From a virus, in IMG/VR virus record IMGVR_UViG_3300026519_000073, positions 1 through 21,140 of that record: 21,140 nucleotides of DNA; one strand, 5' to 3'. A program made the translations under genes and the position numbers. The notes under the pieces were generated by a model that searched no databases, was not told the origin of the DNA, and saw nothing but the letters and a program-made list of their open reading frames with translations. Position 1 is the stretch's first letter. Each line of letters starts with the position of its first letter. Shown in pieces: positions 1 to 17,161 of this stretch.

Positions 1-795
1 TCCTTCTTCGCTTGTCAAGAACTTCATCGTTTGCCTTATAAAGATGGCCGCTACCTGCGGGACGATGGCGTTTCCGTAGGCGCGTATTCGTCCCACTCGT
101 CCGGGAACCCCATCAGCCACCGGGAAAATGCCGGGTTTAGTTGGCCGGATTTTTCCGTCTGCGCATTCGACCCACTCGAGATCATCCCAATTTGCTGTGT
201 CAATGGAACCCCGGTATCGTGAGGCCTCGGCGGCTTGATTCCCCTCACCGCATCCTGTGCTGTTGGAGTAACCCACCCTGACCGCTCCCCAATACAATCT
301 CTGTCTGATATGCGGCGCACCGACGCCCGCAGCGCACAGATCGGCGGCCCCAACGGCATATCCCATTTCTTCCAGGTCAGAACGTACAGAGGAGAGCCAA
401 GCCCTTCCAGCAGGACTCGCAACCTGCTCTCCAAAGATAACTGAAGGTCTGCACTCATCAACGAGATTCCTGAATACAGGCCAGAGGTGTCTTTCATCAC
501 TCTCCCCTTTTTGTTTACCTGCGACAGAAAAAGGCTGACATGGCAAGGATGCCGTCCAGACTTCAACATCGTCAGGCCACCCAGCAAGTTGTAGCGCCAA
601 ATCCCATCCACCAATCCCGGCAAAGAAGTGTGCCCGTATAACGCCAAACATTTGCATTGCCGGGATCAGTGAATTAGGCTCAAGGTCGAGTATGCTTCTA
701 TGATCGACTATGCCAGGCATGATCTTATTGGCCTTGGCAAGATTCATTAGCCAAGTGGCTGCAAATTGGTCAAACTCGTTGTAGTAGGCTTGCAT
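1..795 (-). CDS. C5 cytosine DNA methyltransferase, partial (3' end outside window)
   Basis: This reading frame stays open to the left edge, giving 265 residues with no stop. It shows the C5-methyltransferase motifs in order: FAGIGGWD (58-65, AdoMet binding, motif I), PCQPFS (85-90, catalytic Cys86, motif IV), FGEQVAS (121-127, motif VI, where most relatives have ENV), APHIRQRLYW (160-169, motif VIII) and YGNAIVPQ (240-247, motif X). The target-recognition stretch between VIII and X is only about 70 residues. The enzyme should transfer a methyl group to cytosine C5, probably to protect phage DNA from host restriction; its target is unknown. The start is chosen because the N-terminus (MQAYYNEFDQFAA) looks like that of phage relatives, and it lies one base after the HNH stop (TGACATG). 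A start at 837 would add 14 residues. Confidence 0.93.
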   Translation of the reverse strand, partial: MQAYYNEFDQFAATWLMNLAKANKIMPGIVDHRSILDLEPNSLIPAMQMFGVIRAHFFAGIGGWDLALQLAGWPDDVEVWTASLPCQPFSVAGKQKGESDERHLWPVFRNLVDECRPSVIFGEQVASPAGRAWLSSVRSDLEEMGYAVGAADLCAAGVGAPHIRQRLYWGAVRVGYSNSTGCGEGNQAAEASRYRGSIDTANWDDLEWVECADGKIRPTKPGIFPVADGVPGRVGRIRAYGNAIVPQVAAIFIRQTMKFLTSEEG

Positions 796-796
796 G

Positions 797-1111
797 TCAA
801 CCACGGCGAAATAGTACGGCTTTGCCACGATGCACATTTTCCCTTGGGGTAACAGGGGACAGATGCGCTGGATTGCAGCAAGCCCGGTTTCGACATAGAT
901 GGTCAAGCACAATCTCAGACCTAATATCAGACCTTAGCATTTTGTAAACAAGTCTATGTGTCATGTGGCGAACACCATACAACCACACTCTACCGTACCC
1001 GTTTCTATTTTTCTCCCCAAGCCATACCCAACACCCGTCATCAGTTATTTCTATCTTTTTTGATATACTGTCTGGCAATTTTGATAACTGTTTGTAGGTA
1101 ATTCTGTTCAT
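797..1111 (-). CDS. HNH endonuclease
   Basis: A 104-residue protein of the small phage HNH family. An N-terminal CWVWLG (27-32) and NGYGR (37-41) precede the core DHLCRNRACCNPAHL (70-84), which supplies the metal-binding and catalytic D70-H71, N80 and H83, followed by ENVHRG (91-96). Cys27, Cys73, Cys78 and Cys79 could help bind zinc. It probably nicks or cuts double-stranded DNA. It may be a free-standing homing-type nuclease or may act in recombination or packaging, but it lies far from terminase here. The start overlaps the upstream stop by one base (TAATG) and the methyltransferase begins one base after its stop, so it is embedded in the operon rather than a loose insertion. Confidence 0.9.
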   Translation of the reverse strand: MNRITYKQLSKLPDSISKKIEITDDGCWVWLGEKNRNGYGRVWLYGVRHMTHRLVYKMLRSDIRSEIVLDHLCRNRACCNPAHLSPVTPRENVHRGKAVLFRRG

Positions 1112-10591: not shown

Positions 10592-10644
10592 GTTTACTGT
10601 TTACTGTTTACTGTTTACTGTTTACTGTTTACTGTTTACTGTTT
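10592..10644. repeat. Perfect tandem heptamer (GTTTACT, about 7.6 copies)
   Basis: Seven exact GTTTACT units are followed by GTTT. On the minus strand the unit is AGTAAAC. The array begins inside the end of the pentapeptide-repeat gene, whose TAA stop is supplied by one unit, and ends ten bases before the GGGAGAG of the next gene. Since 7 is not a multiple of 3, each extra unit shifts the frame, and the TAA in each unit gives stops in all three frames. Confidence 0.95.
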
Positions 10645-11172
10645 TGCCCCACGCAGAATGGCCCCGCGCAGGTTGGCCCCATCCAGGTAGGCTCCGCGGA
10701 TGTCTGTATTGCGCAAATCGGCCTCACGCAAGTCGGCCTTACGCAAGTCGGCTTCACGCAGGTCAGCCCAGCGAAGCCCCGAATCGCCAAGGCTGGCTTC
10801 ACGCAGATCGGCTTTGGGCAAGTAGGCATCGCGCAGGTTAGCCCCTCGCAGGTAGGCCCCACGCATGTTGGCCCTAAAGAAGTCGGCACCGCTCAGATTG
10901 GCCTCGTGCAGGTTGGCACCGCTCAGGTTGGCACCGCTCAGGTTGGCACCGCTCAGATTGGCCTCGTGCAGGTTGGCACCGCTCAGGTCGGCACCGCTCA
11001 GATTGGCCTCGTGCAGGTTGGCACCGCTCAGGTCGGCACCGCTCAGGTTGGCACCGCGCAGGATGGCCCTACGCAAGTCGACCTCACGCAAGTCAGCCTG
11101 TTCTCCCTCGACGTCCTCCGCAAGCCACGCGGCATGCAGGGTAAGGATTTCTTTCAGTTCTTGTGCATTCAT
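10636..11172 (-). CDS. Pentapeptide-repeat protein
   Basis: A 178-residue protein. A short helical N-terminus (MNAQELKEILTLHAAWLAED) is followed by about 28 pentapeptide units of the A(D/N)LxX type, with a run of ANLSGADLSG and ANLHE units between about residues 40 and 95 and more varied units afterwards. The repeats fold as a right-handed square beta-helix. Some members (MfpA, Qnr) mimic DNA and bind gyrase, but most have no known role. AGGAGA precedes the ATG and it is the first gene after the leftward promoter, so it should be made early. The frame beginning at 11265 would start upstream of the promoter and is rejected. Near-identical units at DNA level suggest recent unit duplication. Confidence 0.93.
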   Translation of the reverse strand: MNAQELKEILTLHAAWLAEDVEGEQADLREVDLRRAILRGANLSGADLSGANLHEANLSGADLSGANLHEANLSGANLSGANLSGANLHEANLSGADFFRANMRGAYLRGANLRDAYLPKADLREASLGDSGLRWADLREADLRKADLREADLRNTDIRGAYLDGANLRGAILRGAKQ

Positions 11173-11233
11173 ATCTGCTCTCCTGTCCTTCTGTTTGTCT
11201 GTTTTGCCCCGCCCACTCGGCAAGGTTGAGTCA

Positions 11234-11262
11234 ATCCTAGACCAGCTTTCCCCATGTGTCAA
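11234..11262 (-). promoter_or_regulatory. Leftward sigma70-type promoter
   Basis: On the minus strand a perfect -35 box TTGACA (11262-11257) is followed after 17 bases by TAGGAT (11239-11234, four of six consensus positions). It would start transcription about 60 bases before the pentapeptide-repeat gene and so drive the leftward operon. A second TTGACACA copy lies 13 bases further upstream and may be a repressor or activator site. Confidence 0.7.
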
Positions 11263-11290
11263 CATTTTGTGTCAAGATTTTGTTGCAACA
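11255..11290. promoter_or_regulatory. Candidate operator region between divergent promoters
   Basis: Two direct TGTGTCAA copies (11255-11262 and 11268-11275) are 13 bases apart, followed by the perfect palindrome TGTTGCAACA (11281-11290). They lie on or between the -35 boxes of the two promoters. A protein bound here could control both directions; the small HTH protein encoded just downstream is the natural candidate, by inference from position. Confidence 0.5.
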
Positions 11291-11311
11291 TCCTTCCGCC
11301 CAGCCTATGAT
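11283..11311 (+). promoter_or_regulatory. Rightward sigma70-type promoter
   Basis: TTGCAA (11283-11288, four of six consensus positions) and TATGAT (11306-11311, five of six) are 17 bases apart. The start of transcription would lie near 11318, about 40 bases ahead of the HTH regulator gene. The -35 box is inside the TGTTGCAACA palindrome, so a repressor there would block this promoter. Confidence 0.65.
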
Positions 11312-11357
11312 TGCCCTCAGACAACCGCACCCCAAAGCAAAATCAAGGACTTATACA

Positions 11358-11573
11358 ATGGACAAGTACCTGAAGACTGCTCTCGACCTGCACGGCACCT
11401 GGGCCAAGCTGGTCTATGAGATCAACAAACACCTGACCCGTGCCGGGCAACCGGCGCTCTCCCAGCAGGCCATCCAGAACTGGGCGACGCGGGGCATCCC
11501 CGCCAATCGCGCCTTTGTCATCGAACGAGTGACCGATGGCAAGGTCAAGGCCAAAGACATCATAAAGGGGTGA
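11358..11573 (+). CDS. Cro/YdaS-like HTH regulator
   Basis: A 71-residue protein with a helix-turn-helix (about 34-56: LSQQAIQNWATRGIPANRAF) followed by VIERVTDGKVKAKDI. This is the arrangement of YdaS/Cro-like small DNA-binding proteins, where the second helix contacts DNA and the 'IP..ra..iE..t.G' stretch closes the fold. AAGGAC lies eight bases before the ATG. A longer frame from 11256 would start upstream of the promoter and is rejected. As the first gene of the rightward unit next to two divergent promoters, it probably represses one or both. No opposing CI-like repressor gene is visible. Confidence 0.82.
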   Translation: MDKYLKTALDLHGTWAKLVYEINKHLTRAGQPALSQQAIQNWATRGIPANRAFVIERVTDGKVKAKDIIKG

Positions 11574-11579
11574 GCCATC

Positions 11580-13679
11580 ATGACGACCTATAGAGCAGCA
11601 GCCGTCGAACTGCTGGAAGCAGGCTATGAGCCTATCCCCATCATGCCAAACAGCAAACGCCCAGCCATCAAAGGGTGGACGGGCATTGACCTGACCAGAG
11701 ACACTGTTGTTACCCTGGCAGAGCAATACGCCGATTATGGCGTCGGCTTGCGCGGCGGAAAGCTCATGGTCATTGACATGGACATCACTGACAAGGACAT
11801 CGTGCAGCACCTTGTCGCCTGGTGCCGGAAACACCTTGGCCGGGGACTTTCCAGAATAGGCCAGCCCCCGAAAATCGCCCTGTTCTATCAGGCAGAAACA
11901 CCTTCCCCCATCAGGCAGTCAGCGACCTATTCCATAGGGCACATCGAGGCCCGGTCAACAGGCACACAGACAGTCGCCTTTGGCGTACACCCGGCAACAA
12001 ACCAACCCTATCAATGGCTTGACAAGACCCCAATCACAACCTCCCTTCACGACCTGCCTGTAGTCCCTGCCTCTAAAATCAATGCCCTGTTCGCCTATCT
12101 CGACTCCCTCTGCACCGAGCAGGGTATCGAGCCAGACACTCAGCCAGCCGACGATGACAGTACACATACTGGCGAGTGGATGGCCCCCAAGTACAGCATC
12201 AGCGACAAGGACTTGGCCCAGGCTCTTTCCTACTTGCCGTCCGATGATTACCATGATTGGGTCAAGGTCGGCATGGCCTTATATCATCATTACGATGGCT
12301 CGCCGGAGGGACTGGAACTCTGGGAGCTATGGTCATCCCGCTCGCCCAAGTTCCAGCCTGGCGACTGCGAAACAAAGTGGGATACCTTCCACGAAACAGG
12401 GAAACGCTCTACTGTCACCATCGGCACCATCCTGAAGCTGGCCCAGCTTGAGGGCTGGCATAACCCCGGCCCATACATCCCCATCAACACCGAAGACGCC
12501 GAGCAACAGGTCACGACTGCCGACCCCTCGACACTCATGGAGCGCATACTGACGACCGAGCCCCCACCGGTCGAATGGCTCATAGACGGGCTGCTGTTGG
12601 CGAATAGGGTCTGCCTGTTGGTCGCCCCAGGCGGGACCGGCAAGTCCATCCTGACTCTGCAAATGGCCTGGGCTGTCGCTACGGGGACGCCTTTCCTTGA
12701 CGCCACCGTAGAACAGGCCCCGGTTCTGGTTCTTGGGGCCGAGGATGACAACGACGACCTGCATAGGCGACTCCATGCCATCTACAAGGCCGCGCTCGAT
12801 GAGTTCCCGTCCAGTGATGACGCCATCGACAGCGATGCCATGGTAAGGGACGCTATCGCCAACCTGGTCCCCGTCTCCCTGGTTGGCAGATCGGTGCAAC
12901 TCATTCAGCGGGACGGGGCCGGGCACTCGATGACGCCCCTGGTCGATAAGGTCATCGCCAAGGCCAGCAGCGTCAACGCCAGGCTAATCATCATTGACCC
13001 GCTATCCCGTTTCGGATGCGGCGAAGAAGGGCCGGACATGATCCGATTCGCGGAAACCCTGGAACACATTAGAGACAAGACCGGGGCAACCATCCTGGCC
13101 GTCCACCACGCCAACAAGGCATCCATGCGGGAAGGTGGCGCAGATATGCAGTTCGCCGCTAGGGGACACTCCGCCCTGACAGACTCAGTACGGTTCCAGC
13201 TAAACATGGCTTCTATGCACCCGGACGATGCCAAGAACCATGGCCTGAAGCCGTCTGAGGCCCCAATGTACGTCAAGCTGGCCGTGAGCAAGACCAACTA
13301 CTCTGCCCGCTCAGATGGCCTCTGGCTGCGCCGTGGGGCGGGCGGCGTCATGGCCCTGGTGGACATCGACCAGCGGGTGCAGGACGTGGACGAGAAAGAG
13401 CGCGAGGCGCTGGATGACAGACTGCTATCGGCCATAGCCAGATATGCAAGAGCCGGGGGCCCGGCGACCAAGAGGGCGATAAAGGAAATGGCTGGGGAGA
13501 ATGGTCCGCTCAGGGCGTCCAGGGGGGCGGTCATGATGTCCATGGAAAGACTCATCGAGGCCGAAAAAGTCATCCTTGCGCCGAAAGGTGGGCGGGGTGG
13601 CGGGTATGTCTTGCTTCCTGCAATCGAGAGTGAAAACGAGGAAGAAAAGGGGGATGTCGATGACCTTCTTGACGTATGA
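11580..13679 (+). CDS. Prim-pol primase fused to RepA-like helicase
   Basis: A 699-residue replication protein. Residues 1-175 are a bifunctional primase-polymerase domain (YEPIPIMPNSKRPAIKGW, VIDMDIT with Asp66 and Asp68, IEARSTGTQTVAFGVHP). A PriCT-2-like domain follows (about 208-292: ALSYLPSDDYHDWVKVGMAL). Then a RepA/AAA_25 ATPase: APGGTGKS (349-356, Walker A), LVLGAEDD (383-390), LIIIDPLSRF (469-478, Walker B) and ILAVHHANK (505-513, sensor-type motif). A C-terminal part (610-680) looks like a winged helix. It should prime and unwind DNA for the family A polymerase encoded on the other strand. It starts six bases after the regulator stop, with GGGG upstream. The C-terminus is acidic (EEEKGDVDDLLDV). 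Confidence 0.95.
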   Translation: MTTYRAAAVELLEAGYEPIPIMPNSKRPAIKGWTGIDLTRDTVVTLAEQYADYGVGLRGGKLMVIDMDITDKDIVQHLVAWCRKHLGRGLSRIGQPPKIALFYQAETPSPIRQSATYSIGHIEARSTGTQTVAFGVHPATNQPYQWLDKTPITTSLHDLPVVPASKINALFAYLDSLCTEQGIEPDTQPADDDSTHTGEWMAPKYSISDKDLAQALSYLPSDDYHDWVKVGMALYHHYDGSPEGLELWELWSSRSPKFQPGDCETKWDTFHETGKRSTVTIGTILKLAQLEGWHNPGPYIPINTEDAEQQVTTADPSTLMERILTTEPPPVEWLIDGLLLANRVCLLVAPGGTGKSILTLQMAWAVATGTPFLDATVEQAPVLVLGAEDDNDDLHRRLHAIYKAALDEFPSSDDAIDSDAMVRDAIANLVPVSLVGRSVQLIQRDGAGHSMTPLVDKVIAKASSVNARLIIIDPLSRFGCGEEGPDMIRFAETLEHIRDKTGATILAVHHANKASMREGGADMQFAARGHSALTDSVRFQLNMASMHPDDAKNHGLKPSEAPMYVKLAVSKTNYSARSDGLWLRRGAGGVMALVDIDQRVQDVDEKEREALDDRLLSAIARYARAGGPATKRAIKEMAGENGPLRASRGAVMMSMERLIEAEKVILAPKGGRGGGYVLLPAIESENEEEKGDVDDLLDV

Positions 13680-13705
13680 AAAACGGAAGTGGGCAAGTGG
13701 GCCAA

Positions 13706-13755
13706 AAGTGGGCCAAGGGGGTTGGCCCACTTCTTTTTGCTGTTTTTACAGGTTT
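13706..13755 (+). terminator. Probable terminator after the primase-helicase gene
   Basis: The first repeat hairpin has an 11-bp stem (AAGTGGGCCAA and TTGGCCCACTT, loop of five G) and is followed by CTTTTTGCTGTTTTT, then GGTTTTTT. Placed 27 bases after the stop codon, it has the form of a Rho-independent terminator for the early rightward transcript. Confidence 0.65.
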
Positions 13756-13756
13756 T

Positions 13757-13785
13757 TTGACATTTCGCCTATTTTCACGTTGATT
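13757..13785 (+). promoter_or_regulatory. Weak candidate late promoter
   Basis: A perfect TTGACA lies just after the terminator tail. At 17 bases the matching -10 is only TTGATT (three of six). If transcription stops at the hairpin before it, a promoter somewhere in this stretch must feed the packaging genes. The site is suggestive only. Confidence 0.22.
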
Positions 13786-13827
13786 TTACCTAAGTGGGCA
13801 GACAGGTTGGCCCAGTTATTTGCATAT

Positions 13828-14164
13828 AAATCAATAGCTTGCGAGACAAAAAGAAGTGGGCCAGAAGTGGGCCAAGGGGACTGGCCCACTTACATTGAAA
13901 ACATGGCAAAAGAAGTGGGCCAGAAGTGGGCCAAACCGCTTGGCCAACTTTGGCCCACTTTCTGTTTCTATAAAAATCAAGAACTTACGAAAGTGGGCAA
14001 GTGGGCCAAAAGTGGGCCAAACAGCTTGGCCCACTTTGAGGCAAAAATCGCAATTTGTAAGTTGTTGATTTTTAACGATTTAAGTGGGCCAACAGGGCTT
14101 GGCCCACTTAGAAGTGGGCAGGCCCCTTGGCCCACTTCTTTTTCCTTCCAAATCAATAACTTAC
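13828..14164. repeat. Second dispersed 15-mer, AAATCAAnAACTTAC
   Basis: Copies at 13974-13988 (n=G) and 14150-14164 (n=T) are direct, 14057-14071 is inverted (n=C), and 13828-13842 is a direct copy with two changes (AAATCAATAGCTTGC). They sit in the AT-rich spacers of the larger array, between its hairpin clusters. The alternation of an AT-rich and a GC-rich unit resembles iteron arrays at replication origins. Confidence 0.75.
14112..14144 (+). terminator. Terminator-like hairpin in the repeat array
   Basis: A shortened forward unit pairs with TTGGCCCACTT over at least eight base pairs and is followed by CTTTTTCC. It has terminator form, but it lies 130 bases before the next gene and may be only one more repeat cluster. 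Confidence 0.4.
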
Positions 14165-14191
14165 AGCAACATGCCGGAAGTGGGCCACGGA

Positions 14192-14251
14192 CCCTCCCCC
14201 CTAAAGGGGGGAGGGCTTTTGGGTAGCCCTCCCCCGCTTGGGGAGAGGGGG
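14192..14251 (+). promoter_or_regulatory. Mutually exclusive GC-rich hairpins before the late genes
   Basis: Four segments can pair in turn: CCCTCCCCCC (14192-14201) with GGGGGGAGGG (14206-14215) by ten perfect base pairs, then CTTTT; GGGGGAGGGCT (14207-14217) with AGCCCTCCCCC (14225-14235) by eleven perfect base pairs; and that last segment with the imperfect GGGGAGAGGGGG (14240-14251). The 1:2, 2:3, 3:4 topology resembles an attenuator. It ends about eleven bases before the AGGAG of the next gene. Confidence 0.55.
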
Positions 14252-14270
14252 ATACCGCGCAGGAGTGAAA

Positions 14271-14648
14271 ATGCGAAAGGGCGAAAAACGAAAACTTTGG
14301 ACGAAACGGGAAGACGCGATTTTGCGAAAGCACTATCGCTTTGGGGTCAGGACCGTGATCGAAAAACTCCCTGGCCGAACGAAACGAGCGATTGTGCTGA
14401 GAGCCAGGCGGCTGAACCTGGACGGGAACACCTGGACGCCGAACGAAGATCACGTCATCGAGATGTGCTATCGGGACTTTGGGGCTGCGTATTGCCAGCG
14501 ATATATGCCCTACCGCACTCTGGTCGCCATCCGATGTCGAGCGGCGAGGATTGGCGTCAGGCGGGATTTGACGAAGCGGAAGAAGCCCCCGCCAAAGGGG
14601 GATTGGATTGCTGCGATGGACTATGCTTTGCGAAAACCTTGGAGGTAG
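14271..14648 (+). CDS. Two-repeat Myb/SANT-like DNA-binding protein
   Basis: A 125-residue basic protein with two copies of a helix-turn-helix of the Myb/SANT/GcrA type. The first (10-50) reads WTKREDAILRKHY, then LPGRTKRAIVLRARRL; the second (55-96) reads WTPNEDHVIEMCY, then MPYRTLVAIRCRAARIG. Both show the WT..ED start and the 'R..AI..RA.rl' recognition helix. A basic linker (RRDLTKRKKPPPKG) and short tail follow. It is probably a sequence-specific DNA-binding protein. AGGAG lies six bases before the ATG. It stands right after the repeat array and before the small terminase, so it may bind the array, or help choose the packaging site; both are inference. Confidence 0.82.
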   Translation: MRKGEKRKLWTKREDAILRKHYRFGVRTVIEKLPGRTKRAIVLRARRLNLDGNTWTPNEDHVIEMCYRDFGAAYCQRYMPYRTLVAIRCRAARIGVRRDLTKRKKPPPKGDWIAAMDYALRKPWR

Positions 14649-14653
14649 AAATC

Positions 14654-15376
14654 ATGGGAAAAAACCGAGAAGACGACAAAGAAGACCTGCTGAGGCTGCC
14701 TGAGGGCGGCCCTGGGAGGCCGAAACAGCTTGAGACACCCCAGGCTAGGGCTAAAAGGGCAAAAGGGCTCAGCAAGGCTCTCAGGCTGCCTGAGACGGTT
14801 GACCCGCCAAAGTGGGTAGAAGACCCGGAAGACAAGGACTCCTGGTGGCCGTACTACGACCCTGATCGTGACGGGTATCACTACGGGAAACCAAGGAAAA
14901 TCAAGTCCCCGGAGGAGTTTGATGCCCTTGTTGATGACTATTTTCGGCACTGCAAGAAGCTAAATCTCAGGCCGACAATGACTGGCCTAGTGCTTCATCT
15001 GGGGTTTGCAAGTCAGCAGTCACTAACCGACTACACCAAGCGATATGGTGGGATGTATGCTGACTCAATTAAACGCGCCCGGAATATGGTAAAGCTGGCA
15101 TACGAGCATCATCTGATCCGTGAGCAGGGTTCCGTTCAGGGTGTCATCTTCGCCCTTCGCAGCTTCGGGCGGCATGACGAAGATGGGCCTGACTTCGAGG
15201 ATGTGCAGCGAACTGAGTTGACCGGCAAGGATGGCAAGCCGGTGGCGATAGCCCAGCTATCAGCGACGCTGGAAAACATGAACGATGTCGAGAAGGCAAC
15301 ACGGCTGTATCACATCCTGAAAGCTGCGATGGAGAAGGGCAACGATGAGGGCGAAGACGATGAGCACGAAGCATAG
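14654..15376 (+). CDS. Terminase small subunit
   Basis: A 240-residue protein upstream of the large terminase. The N-terminus (about 1-80) is charged and probably flexible (PEGGPGRPKQL, KWVEDPEDKDSWW). Residues 80-175 hold SPEEFDALVDDYFRHC, RPTMTGLVLHLGFASQQSL, then YADSIKRARNMVKLAYEHH. This is the helix-turn-helix arrangement of gp3-like DNA-packaging proteins that bind the pac or cos site. The C-terminus is acidic (KGNDEGEDDEHEA) as in many small terminases that contact the large subunit. GGAGG lies nine bases before the ATG. A much longer frame from 14084 would run through the repeat array and the Myb-like gene and is rejected. Confidence 0.9.
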   Translation: MGKNREDDKEDLLRLPEGGPGRPKQLETPQARAKRAKGLSKALRLPETVDPPKWVEDPEDKDSWWPYYDPDRDGYHYGKPRKIKSPEEFDALVDDYFRHCKKLNLRPTMTGLVLHLGFASQQSLTDYTKRYGGMYADSIKRARNMVKLAYEHHLIREQGSVQGVIFALRSFGRHDEDGPDFEDVQRTELTGKDGKPVAIAQLSATLENMNDVEKATRLYHILKAAMEKGNDEGEDDEHEA

Positions 15377-15575
15377 AAGCTGGGTGTCAGACCGTATGGT
15401 GTTCAAGATGCAGGCGAGTGACATCACGACCATCAATATGCTTGCCGGTCGCTGCTTGTATGTTTGCATCGACAACCAGGTGAAAACGAAACGCGCCAGG
15501 TATGAGTTACTTCAGAGCCAGATAAAGGCGGCTGATGTTGCCAATCGGTTTTTGGCGAGGATGGTAACGCAATGA
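15360..15575 (+). CDS. Small hypothetical protein between terminase subunits
   Basis: A 71-residue basic protein (MSTKHRSWVSDRMVFKMQAS, then VKTKRARYELLQSQIKAAD and a helical end). No family is recognised. It overlaps the small terminase by 17 bases and its stop overlaps the large terminase ATG (ATGA). GAGG lies nine bases ahead; an alternative start at 15345 with GGAGAAGGG upstream would add five residues. Its position suggests it is coupled to terminase translation and may help packaging. Confidence 0.72.
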   Translation: MSTKHRSWVSDRMVFKMQASDITTINMLAGRCLYVCIDNQVKTKRARYELLQSQIKAADVANRFLARMVTQ

Positions 15576-17161
15576 GTGACATCGACGAGATTAAAAAGCT
15601 GTTGAAGAAAATCGAGGGTGATGAAGAAGCAAAGAACTTCATTGATTCACTCATCCTCGAATCGTACATCGAGAAGCCATGGGTGCCTCTGCCTGGCCCG
15701 CAGTCCGATGCCTACTACAGCGAGGCAGACATACTCGGATATGGTGGGGCAGCAGGTGGTGGCAAAACGGACTTGGCGTGTGGCAAGGCAATCACCATGC
15801 ACAAGCAGGTAGCGATACTGCGAAGGGAAGCAACACAACTCGGAGGCATCTATGAGCGGCTGACTGAGATTATCGGGAGCCGGGACGGCTTCAACGGACA
15901 GACGAGAGAGTGGCGTGTGCCAATCGGGTCACAGCCGACTATCGTATTTGGCTCGACACCAAACCCAGGAGATGAAACAAAACACCAAGGACGGTCAAAG
16001 GATTTTCTCGTCCTCGATGAAGCGGCCAACTTCTTAGAACAACAAGCGCGGTTTCTTATGGGCTGGGTGCGAACAACAGACCCAAACCAGAAGACTCAAG
16101 TATTGTTGACCTTTAACCCGCCAACCAATGCCGAAGGCCAGTGGATTCGTGAGTTCTTTGGGCCATGGCTTGACAAGAAGCATCCTGACTATCCGCAACG
16201 GCCAGGTAAGCTGTTATGGTATGTCACGCTTGACGGCAAAGACTATCGAGTCGATGGCAAGATTGAAGTGCAGCCGGGTGAGAAGATACCAGGGACCAAC
16301 ATCGTCAACCGGGAAGAATATCCGTTGATGTCAAAGAGCCGGACATTCATACCGGCGAAGATCAAGGACAACCCTTACCTGATGCAGACGGGATACGTCG
16401 CAACGCTTCAGGCGATGCCTGAGCCGCTGCGTAGCCAAATGCTCAAAGGTGACTTCTCGGCAGGGCTTGAGGATGACCCATGGCAGGTTATACCGACGAA
16501 GTGGATCGAGATTGCCATGGAGCGATGGGAAGAAAAAGCGCACAAGGGCGACATGACGAGCATGGGCGTCGATGTGTCAAGAGGGGCGAGGGATAAGTCG
16601 GTAATTGCAAGGCGGCATGGCATGTGGTTTGACCAGCTAATCAGGCTCGATGGGACTGCAACCCTGGATGGGCCAACATTAGCAGGACAAATTATCAGCT
16701 ATCGAAGAAATGCGGCCCCGGTGCATATCGACATCATTGGCGTCGGGAGTAGCCCGTATGATGCTCTCAAACAGAACGATGTCCACGTCGAGGGGATAAA
16801 CGTAGCGGAAAAAAGCTATGCTTTCGACATTGCCACGGGCAAGTTGCAATTCCTCAACAAGCGTGCAGAGCTATGGTGGCGTATGCGTGAGGCGCTAGAC
16901 CCGATCAACGATACCGGAATCGCTCTGCCGCCGGACCCGAAGCTGCTGGCTGACCTATCAACACCACTATGGGAATACCGCTCTGGTGGGATTATCAAGA
17001 TCGAAAGCAAGGAAGACATTATCAAACGCCTTGGCCGGTCGCCGGATGACGGCGATGCGGTTGTCCTGGCGTTGATTGATACACCAAAGCGGAAGCATGA
17101 TTTGCTATCAGGCAAGGCGCAGACGGTTACGCACAGCGACTTTGACCCATTCGACTTATAA
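15572..17161 (+). CDS. Terminase large subunit
   Basis: A 529-residue packaging motor and nuclease. The ATPase has GYGGAAGGGKTD (56-67, Walker A), FLVLDEAANF (145-154, Walker B with Glu150) and VLLTFNPP (177-184, coupling motif). The RNase H-like nuclease has MGVDVSRG (331-338, Asp334), VHIDIIGVGSSPYD (384-397, Asp387) and SPDDGDAV (490-497). All expected acidic residues are present. It translocates DNA into the prohead through the portal and cuts it at the end of packaging. It is coupled to the preceding ORF by ATGA. It ends in SDFDPFDL, a tail that may contact the portal. Confidence 0.96.
   Translation: MSDIDEIKKLLKKIEGDEEAKNFIDSLILESYIEKPWVPLPGPQSDAYYSEADILGYGGAAGGGKTDLACGKAITMHKQVAILRREATQLGGIYERLTEIIGSRDGFNGQTREWRVPIGSQPTIVFGSTPNPGDETKHQGRSKDFLVLDEAANFLEQQARFLMGWVRTTDPNQKTQVLLTFNPPTNAEGQWIREFFGPWLDKKHPDYPQRPGKLLWYVTLDGKDYRVDGKIEVQPGEKIPGTNIVNREEYPLMSKSRTFIPAKIKDNPYLMQTGYVATLQAMPEPLRSQMLKGDFSAGLEDDPWQVIPTKWIEIAMERWEEKAHKGDMTSMGVDVSRGARDKSVIARRHGMWFDQLIRLDGTATLDGPTLAGQIISYRRNAAPVHIDIIGVGSSPYDALKQNDVHVEGINVAEKSYAFDIATGKLQFLNKRAELWWRMREALDPINDTGIALPPDPKLLADLSTPLWEYRSGGIIKIESKEDIIKRLGRSPDDGDAVVLALIDTPKRKHDLLSGKAQTVTHSDFDPFDL

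Follow-up and report, generated by a model that had tools for sequence, protein, structure and literature searches.

A repeat array beside a phage primase-helicase gene is a probable iteron-type replication origin with IHF-type sites in its spacers

Introduction

Origins similar to the one proposed here are known in P4 and RSF1010. In RSF1010 the primase, the helicase and the iteron binder are three proteins (RepB′, RepA and RepC), and iteron plasmid origins such as those of pSC101 and R6K combine iterons with IHF sites. The P4 α protein carries primase, helicase and winged helix in one protein, which uses the winged helix to bind the repeats of its origin (PMC4234260). In PICI/SaPI elements (pri-rep-ori) the initiator gene is followed directly on its 3′ side by the origin, whose iteron sets are split by AT-rich DNA (PMC6092414). 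The Rep protein of the archaeal plasmid pRN1 is a Prim-Pol with a C-terminal winged helix, with the origin directly 3′ of rep (PMC4234260), and PLE RepA binds origin iterons (PMC7145576).

Here, we describe an array of 11-base repeats in a 21,140-nucleotide stretch of viral DNA (IMG/VR record IMGVR_UViG_3300026519_000073, positions 1 to 21,140; hereafter the window). We consider that the array is probably an iteron-type replication origin, bound by the adjoining primase-helicase, with IHF or an IHF-like protein bending the spacers. The element would work like the origins of P4, PICIs and RSF1010, but by all tested features it is a member of none of them, and appears to be an iteron origin of a new form.

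Like P4 α acting at ori/crr, the proposed initiator is a single chain with primase, helicase and winged helix, the last of these placed beside the helicase at the C-terminus by predicted structures only. However, P4 α has a Toprim-type primase (PMC4234260), and instead of such a primase fused to an SF3-type helicase we found Prim-Pol, PriCT_2 and a RepA-like AAA_25 helicase. The window also has IHF-type sites between repeat clusters, whereas we found no IHF-phased clusters described for P4 in PMC4234260. PICIs have two iteron sets around one AT-rich region, while the window has at least six clusters, which run in both orientations and are separated by IHF-type sites. The PICI initiator helicase also belongs to a different family from that of the window. 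With RSF1010 oriV the locus shares a helicase homologous to RepA and, on our reading, an iteron origin, but Prim-Pol, PriCT_2 and a predicted winged helix are here in the helicase chain rather than in separate proteins. At the pRN1 origin a 100-nt stem-loop takes the place of iterons and the helicase is SF3, in contrast to iterons and an AAA_25 helicase here; the Rep proteins of pSC101 and R6K are not helicase-primases, and in the window IHF sites alternate repeatedly with iteron clusters; and PLE RepA is of a different family from the window's primase-helicase. The original prediction, made from the DNA letters, had recognized no named element with this design. This was too strong, since PICIs are known to have clusters of iterons directly after the initiator gene (PMC6092414). 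The literature that we searched, with incomplete coverage, contained no paper describing such an element.

Results

The repeat array and its surroundings

The unit AAGTGGGCCAA occurs in 12 exact copies, or 18 at up to one mismatch, all within 13687–14188; a scan of all 21,140 bases of the window found none at up to one mismatch elsewhere. From base composition, 0.01 exact copies would be expected in the whole window. Including degenerate copies there are 22 units, six of them one-mismatch copies of AAGTGGGCCAA, and the predicted excess over chance (22 copies of an 11-base unit in about 500 bases) is confirmed. The core AAGTGGGC is present 14 times in forward and six times in reverse orientation, with two more reverse copies, at 13807 and 13940, that have one core mismatch. 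The units fall into the following clusters (F, forward; R, reverse; all assigned by repeat count, except for the closing hairpin):

13687–13732, no strand: iteron cluster 1, F (two mismatches) F F R; 13706–13732 plus CTTTTT is also terminator-like
13792–13817, no strand: iteron cluster 2, F (two mismatches) R (one mismatch)
13854–13891, no strand: iteron cluster 3, F F R
13913–13960, no strand: iteron cluster 4, F F R R
13991–14036, no strand: iteron cluster 5, F (two mismatches) F F R
14082–14137, no strand: iteron cluster 6, two F-R pairs (14082–14109 and 14112–14137)
14178–14188, plus strand: final single iteron, AAGTGGGCCAC
14192–14215, plus strand: G+C-rich hairpin followed by a T run, terminator-like, the end boundary of the element

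The tandem forward copies have a period of mostly 11 bases. The clusters do not all follow the forward-forward-reverse order originally described, but include FFFR, FR, FFR, FFRR, FR+FR and a single F. An additional inverted repeat is present at 14192–14217/14225–14250. Open reading frames over the array (for example, 13576–14226) merely read through the repeats. Short specific repeats packed densely into a single non-coding site, as here, are a feature of iteron origins. The genes on either side are:

11580–13679, plus strand: primase-helicase, 699 aa, the proposed initiator (Pfam, profile match and predicted structure)
13392–13613, plus strand: part of this gene coding for the proposed iteron-reading winged helix (structure model of moderate confidence, pLDDT about 48–85 by blocks)
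14271–14648, plus strand: small helix-turn-helix gene after the array, a weak match to a “D5-like regulator” family (PHROG 323, E = 3.9e-5), with a Myb-like match below cut-off (Pfam)
14585–15376, plus strand: terminase small subunit (gp3-like), start of the packaging module (Pfam GP3_package; PHROG 606)
15572–17161, plus strand: terminase large subunit (PHROG 2, E = 5.5e-37)

The stop codon of the primase-helicase gene ends at 13679, and the first repeat unit begins 8 bases downstream; a candidate cognate initiator gene thus adjoins the array, as in iteron origins. Upstream of this gene, a Cro-like protein is encoded at 11256–11573. The window's other repeat-rich stretch stems from a pentapeptide-repeat protein gene (10636–11265, minus strand), near the end of which the heptanucleotide GTTTACT is perfectly repeated in 7.6 copies (10592–10644). 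A C-5 cytosine DNA methylase gene (1–912, minus strand) extends past the end of the window.

The primase-helicase and its predicted winged helix

Pfam assigned a Prim-Pol domain (aa 8–160), PriCT_2 (aa 213–288) and a RepA-like AAA_25 helicase (aa 317–515) to the protein, and the family profile matched the RSF1010 RepA structure (1g8y, E = 1.4e-13). A C-terminal winged helix is predicted at about aa 605–678 from the order of helices (H) and strands (E) in the structure model: H605–624, H631–637, H648–660, E664–667, a wing, and E675–678. In a relative (L148), the C-terminal winged helix was predicted confidently, with a pLDDT of 94–98 over the helices and the wing. When the winged helix was compared by Foldseek alone, no match reached E = 0.001; VIA-align matched it to winged helices with Z as high as 7.6, though this may reflect no more than a common arrangement.

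IHF-type sites in the spacers

The array contains four sites that match the IHF consensus (WATCAANNNNTTR, as given in PMC10380432) perfectly. Each lies between repeat clusters, and all had been overlooked in the original prediction:

13829–13841, plus strand: IHF consensus site 1, AATCAATAGCTTG
13975–13987, plus strand: IHF consensus site 2, AATCAAGAACTTA
14058–14070, minus strand: IHF consensus site 3, AATCAACAACTTA
14151–14163, plus strand: IHF consensus site 4, AATCAATAACTTA

Shuffled arrays had a mean of 0.018 such sites, and none of 2000 shuffles reached four. IHF sites among iterons beyond chance are characteristic of IHF-assisted origins, although those of the window are consensus matches only.

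In related phages (see below), we counted 46 occurrences of WWTCAAN4TTR within the arrays (12.8 kb in all) and 17 in the 370 kb outside them, a 78-fold enrichment seen at 28 of 43 loci. When the halves WWTCAA and TTR were spaced by N5 instead of N4, there were no occurrences inside the arrays. The sequence WWTCAATGACTTR gave eight matches across the whole records of ten relatives, and their coordinates put them within the arrays or next to them. A weight matrix built from the spacer of the relatives ranked the window's sites within its nine best hits, but via the IHF core only, and the bases flanking the window's sites did not match the longer spacer of the relatives. The window and its relatives thus seem to have a common kind of IHF-type site, for which we do not claim aligned homology.

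Arrays in related phages

Neither the window's primase by itself nor a three-protein alignment (A1) returned anything in searches for related loci. A search with the protein of Rhizobium phage RHph_N65 and two alignments yielded more than 200 loci, reduced to 76 helicases after near-identical proteins were dropped. Around these 76, there were 47 dense arrays downstream of the helicase gene (in 253 kb) compared with four upstream (in 236 kb). An array was found in 41 of the 57 relatives with at least 3 kb of downstream DNA, leaving more than a quarter of such relatives without a dense one, and in about half of the array-bearing relatives it is not adjacent to the helicase gene but 0.4–3 kb downstream. 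Within 400 bases of the stop codon, at least five copies of one 8-mer were present at 20 of the first 75 loci, compared with 19 of 1178 control windows.

The repeats themselves differ. Homologous helicases with their own dense repeat near the gene end are found in EBPR siphovirus 5 (GGCGGAAGTA), in the isolated phage RHph_N65 (GGCGGAGAT; GCGGAGAT array at 34,936–35,132 of its record) and in Rhodoferax phage P26218 (CTGCTACAA), where a small gene of unknown family separates helicase and array and a terminase gene follows soon after. Other units among the relatives include GCGGAGGT, GCGGAAGT, ACGGAAGT, GCGAGGGT, GCGTAGGT, GCGAAAGT and ACGGAACT; the arrays of the relatives consist almost entirely of direct repeats. 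One array (L141, 4830–5066) contains two iteron types, about three copies of GGCGAGGGTT and then copies of GGCGAAAGTC, possibly a specificity switch under way.

Terminase relatives with a related helicase upstream had a small array of their own in the gap in six of eight cases (L015, L028, L033, L067, L086 and L088; units GCAACTTG, GGCACAC, GTGACGTGA, ACGTTGC, AACGTTCCAA and AACGTCGCAA), while no array was seen in the gap of L009 and L048, which have both flanking genes. In the helicase–terminase gap the place of the array is conserved; its sequence is not. The original prediction was to be abandoned if close relatives sharing both flanking genes all lacked an array there, or if the units were spread all over the genome, and it withstood both. 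In the whole records of nine relatives, the units were likewise concentrated in the array (7 of 7 copies, 9 of 10, 7 of 8, 9 of 12, 10 of 11, 9 of 9, 9 of 13, 12 of 16 and 7 of 9).

Iteron-like arrays also precede the terminase in three terminase relatives that have no AAA_25 match upstream: L040 (773–1176, GGTTGGGCA with GGTTAGGCA), L031 (403–565, GGGAACA) and L062 (4336–4493, GGTGATCTAGG). The layout may therefore extend to other initiator families. When the DNA of phages and plasmids was searched for the window's array, only weak pieces came up, including from Arthrobacter phages. In Arthrobacter phage Tokki (Gordonvirus; L098, 4010–4356), a similar-looking array of AAGTGGGCA occupies a gap that is mostly non-coding, and the stretch examined gave no AAA_25 match.

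The cumulative GC skew of the window is lowest at about 13.2 kb, 0.5 kb away from the array, which would fit an origin, but this measure is confounded by gene direction, which also switches close by. Among nine relatives, the minimum lay no more than 1.7 kb from the array in five and disagreed with its position in four.

Covariation of iteron bases with wing residues

Forty helicases whose iterons could be placed in one frame, x1-C-G-x4-x5-x6-x7-T (set by hand), were compared over 566 protein columns; residue numbers are those of the L148 protein. By mutual information across these 40 relatives, the best column for x1 was residue 683, that for x4 was residue 685 (0.63; next best, 0.34) and that for x6 was residue 687 (0.39; next best, 0.25). 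For x5 and x7, no comparable top column emerged from the same 566 columns and 40 helicases. All three residues (143, 145 and 147 of the L148 fragment) are located in the predicted wing hairpin. Iterons with a base other than G at position 4 go with R or H at 685 in six of six cases, compared with none of the 34 others, and D683 is found with four of five iterons that have A at x1 and with none of the 35 others; both counts are over tips, and their P-values ignore relatedness. In five sister pairs (L139/L138, L219/L137, L224/L217, L100/L216 and L202/L280), defined on a tree built without the C-terminal domain, x4 switches jointly with the change from K685 to R/H685. The L138-type domain has D683/K685 and goes with ACGG, the L139-type domain K683/R685 and GCGA.

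Counting the covariation branch by branch under parsimony gave a noisier and weaker result than the mutual-information ranking, and covariation with the whole motif did not favor the C-terminal domain (p = 0.17); only the single-position analysis did so. Taken from the relatives, there is good evidence that the helicase-primase's own wing would be the iteron reader. The window's protein has G683, R685 and G687 at these positions (alignment A1), but its 11-base unit does not fit the frame of the relatives' iterons, and the residue–base rule is drawn from the relatives only. Protein and repeats seem to have changed together in related phages, and it may become possible to deduce one from the other.

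Alternative functions of the array

In decreasing order of probability, the first alternative is an operator array, at which binding of a phage regulator (the helix-turn-helix protein of 14271–14648 or the Cro-like protein of 11256–11573) would turn transcription of packaging genes on or off. This we regard as unlikely. The helix-turn-helix gene is directly 3′ of the array, and one cluster and the end hairpin are terminator-like, but the arrays of relatives follow the helicase regardless of the next gene, their iteron bases covary with helicase residues, and no sigma-70-like promoter was found in 13500–14700.

Sites for the start of packaging (pac) are often located upstream of terminase genes, as is the array. 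That the terminase small subunit binds the repeats to start headful packaging at a pac/cos site is nevertheless very improbable: the position of the array is tied to the helicase and not to the terminase, annotated RHph_N65 lists no terminase near its array, and the iteron bases follow the helicase wing.

An even smaller chance is given to a structured RNA or terminator array, in which forward and reverse units would pair in the transcript. The RNA fold of the window has a z-score of −9.75, and terminator-like hairpins start at 13706 and 14192. However, an inverted pair of protein sites yields a hairpin anyway, and structure was not conserved in the relatives, whose arrays are mostly direct repeats: L138 folded no better than shuffles (z = +1.34), L142 moderately better (z = −3.11), and no Rfam family was matched.

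Least probable of all are recombinase arm sites or a partition site, with the repeats serving integration or segregation, since no integrase or partition gene was recognized among the scanned window proteins, and the two Burkholderiales genomes in which the window's 11-mer stands in tandem before tyrosine recombinase genes have 2–5 copies at these loci compared with 22 in the window. In these two contigs (L093, 2994–3058; L096, 4986–5017), two to five tandem TTGGCCCACTT directly precede the recombinase genes and are possibly arm sites.

The window's 11-mer also occurs in tandem, with an 11-base period, in phage contigs of Clostridia type and in a Eubacterium MAG (L089, 1254–1442; L090, 2121–2254; L091, 413–676; L092, 4286–4419). 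The three phage contigs gave no AAA_25 helicase match, and the two of them that were checked carry a DUF5906/D5-like primase-polymerase gene. Their tandem 11-mers may represent convergence or a common DNA-binding module. As candidate relatives, the Clostridia-type phages and the Burkholderiales integrase regions were rejected, and were taken as convergence or chance.

Discussion

The original prediction had offered a replication origin, a binding array for a phage protein or a structured non-coding RNA. We retain the first two jointly, because of the array itself, its position, the IHF sites and the covariation in relatives, and set aside the third.

As an iteron-type origin, the array would be gripped by the primase-helicase, a single chain of primase, RepA-like hexameric helicase and winged helix, which would use the winged helix to hold the 11-base iterons. 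The four spacer sites would be occupied by IHF of the host or by a similar DNA-bending protein, and the resulting bends would bring successive iteron clusters together. The assembled helicase would then load and open the DNA, after which its own Prim-Pol domain would start synthesis. We infer these steps of binding, bending, opening and priming, as well as the reading of AAGTGGGCCAA by this particular helicase.

We incline, with some reserve, to a wider reading, in which the window is a distant member, with the furthest-moved iteron, of a widespread family of phage origins. In this family a Prim-Pol/RepA-like initiator would read its iterons by a wing code (residues 683, 685 and 687 for bases 1, 4 and 6), iteron and wing would repeatedly switch jointly between sister phages, and the IHF-phased spacers and the position would be kept.

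For many environmental phages, the finding supplies a rule for locating the origin from sequence alone: it is to be sought just downstream of an AAA_25 primase-helicase gene, where IHF-type sites and short repeats alternate. A second outcome is a protein–DNA specificity code that can be tested. If this code holds, swapping two or three wing residues should switch the choice of iteron, and the code would explain how closely related phages could keep their replication systems separate.
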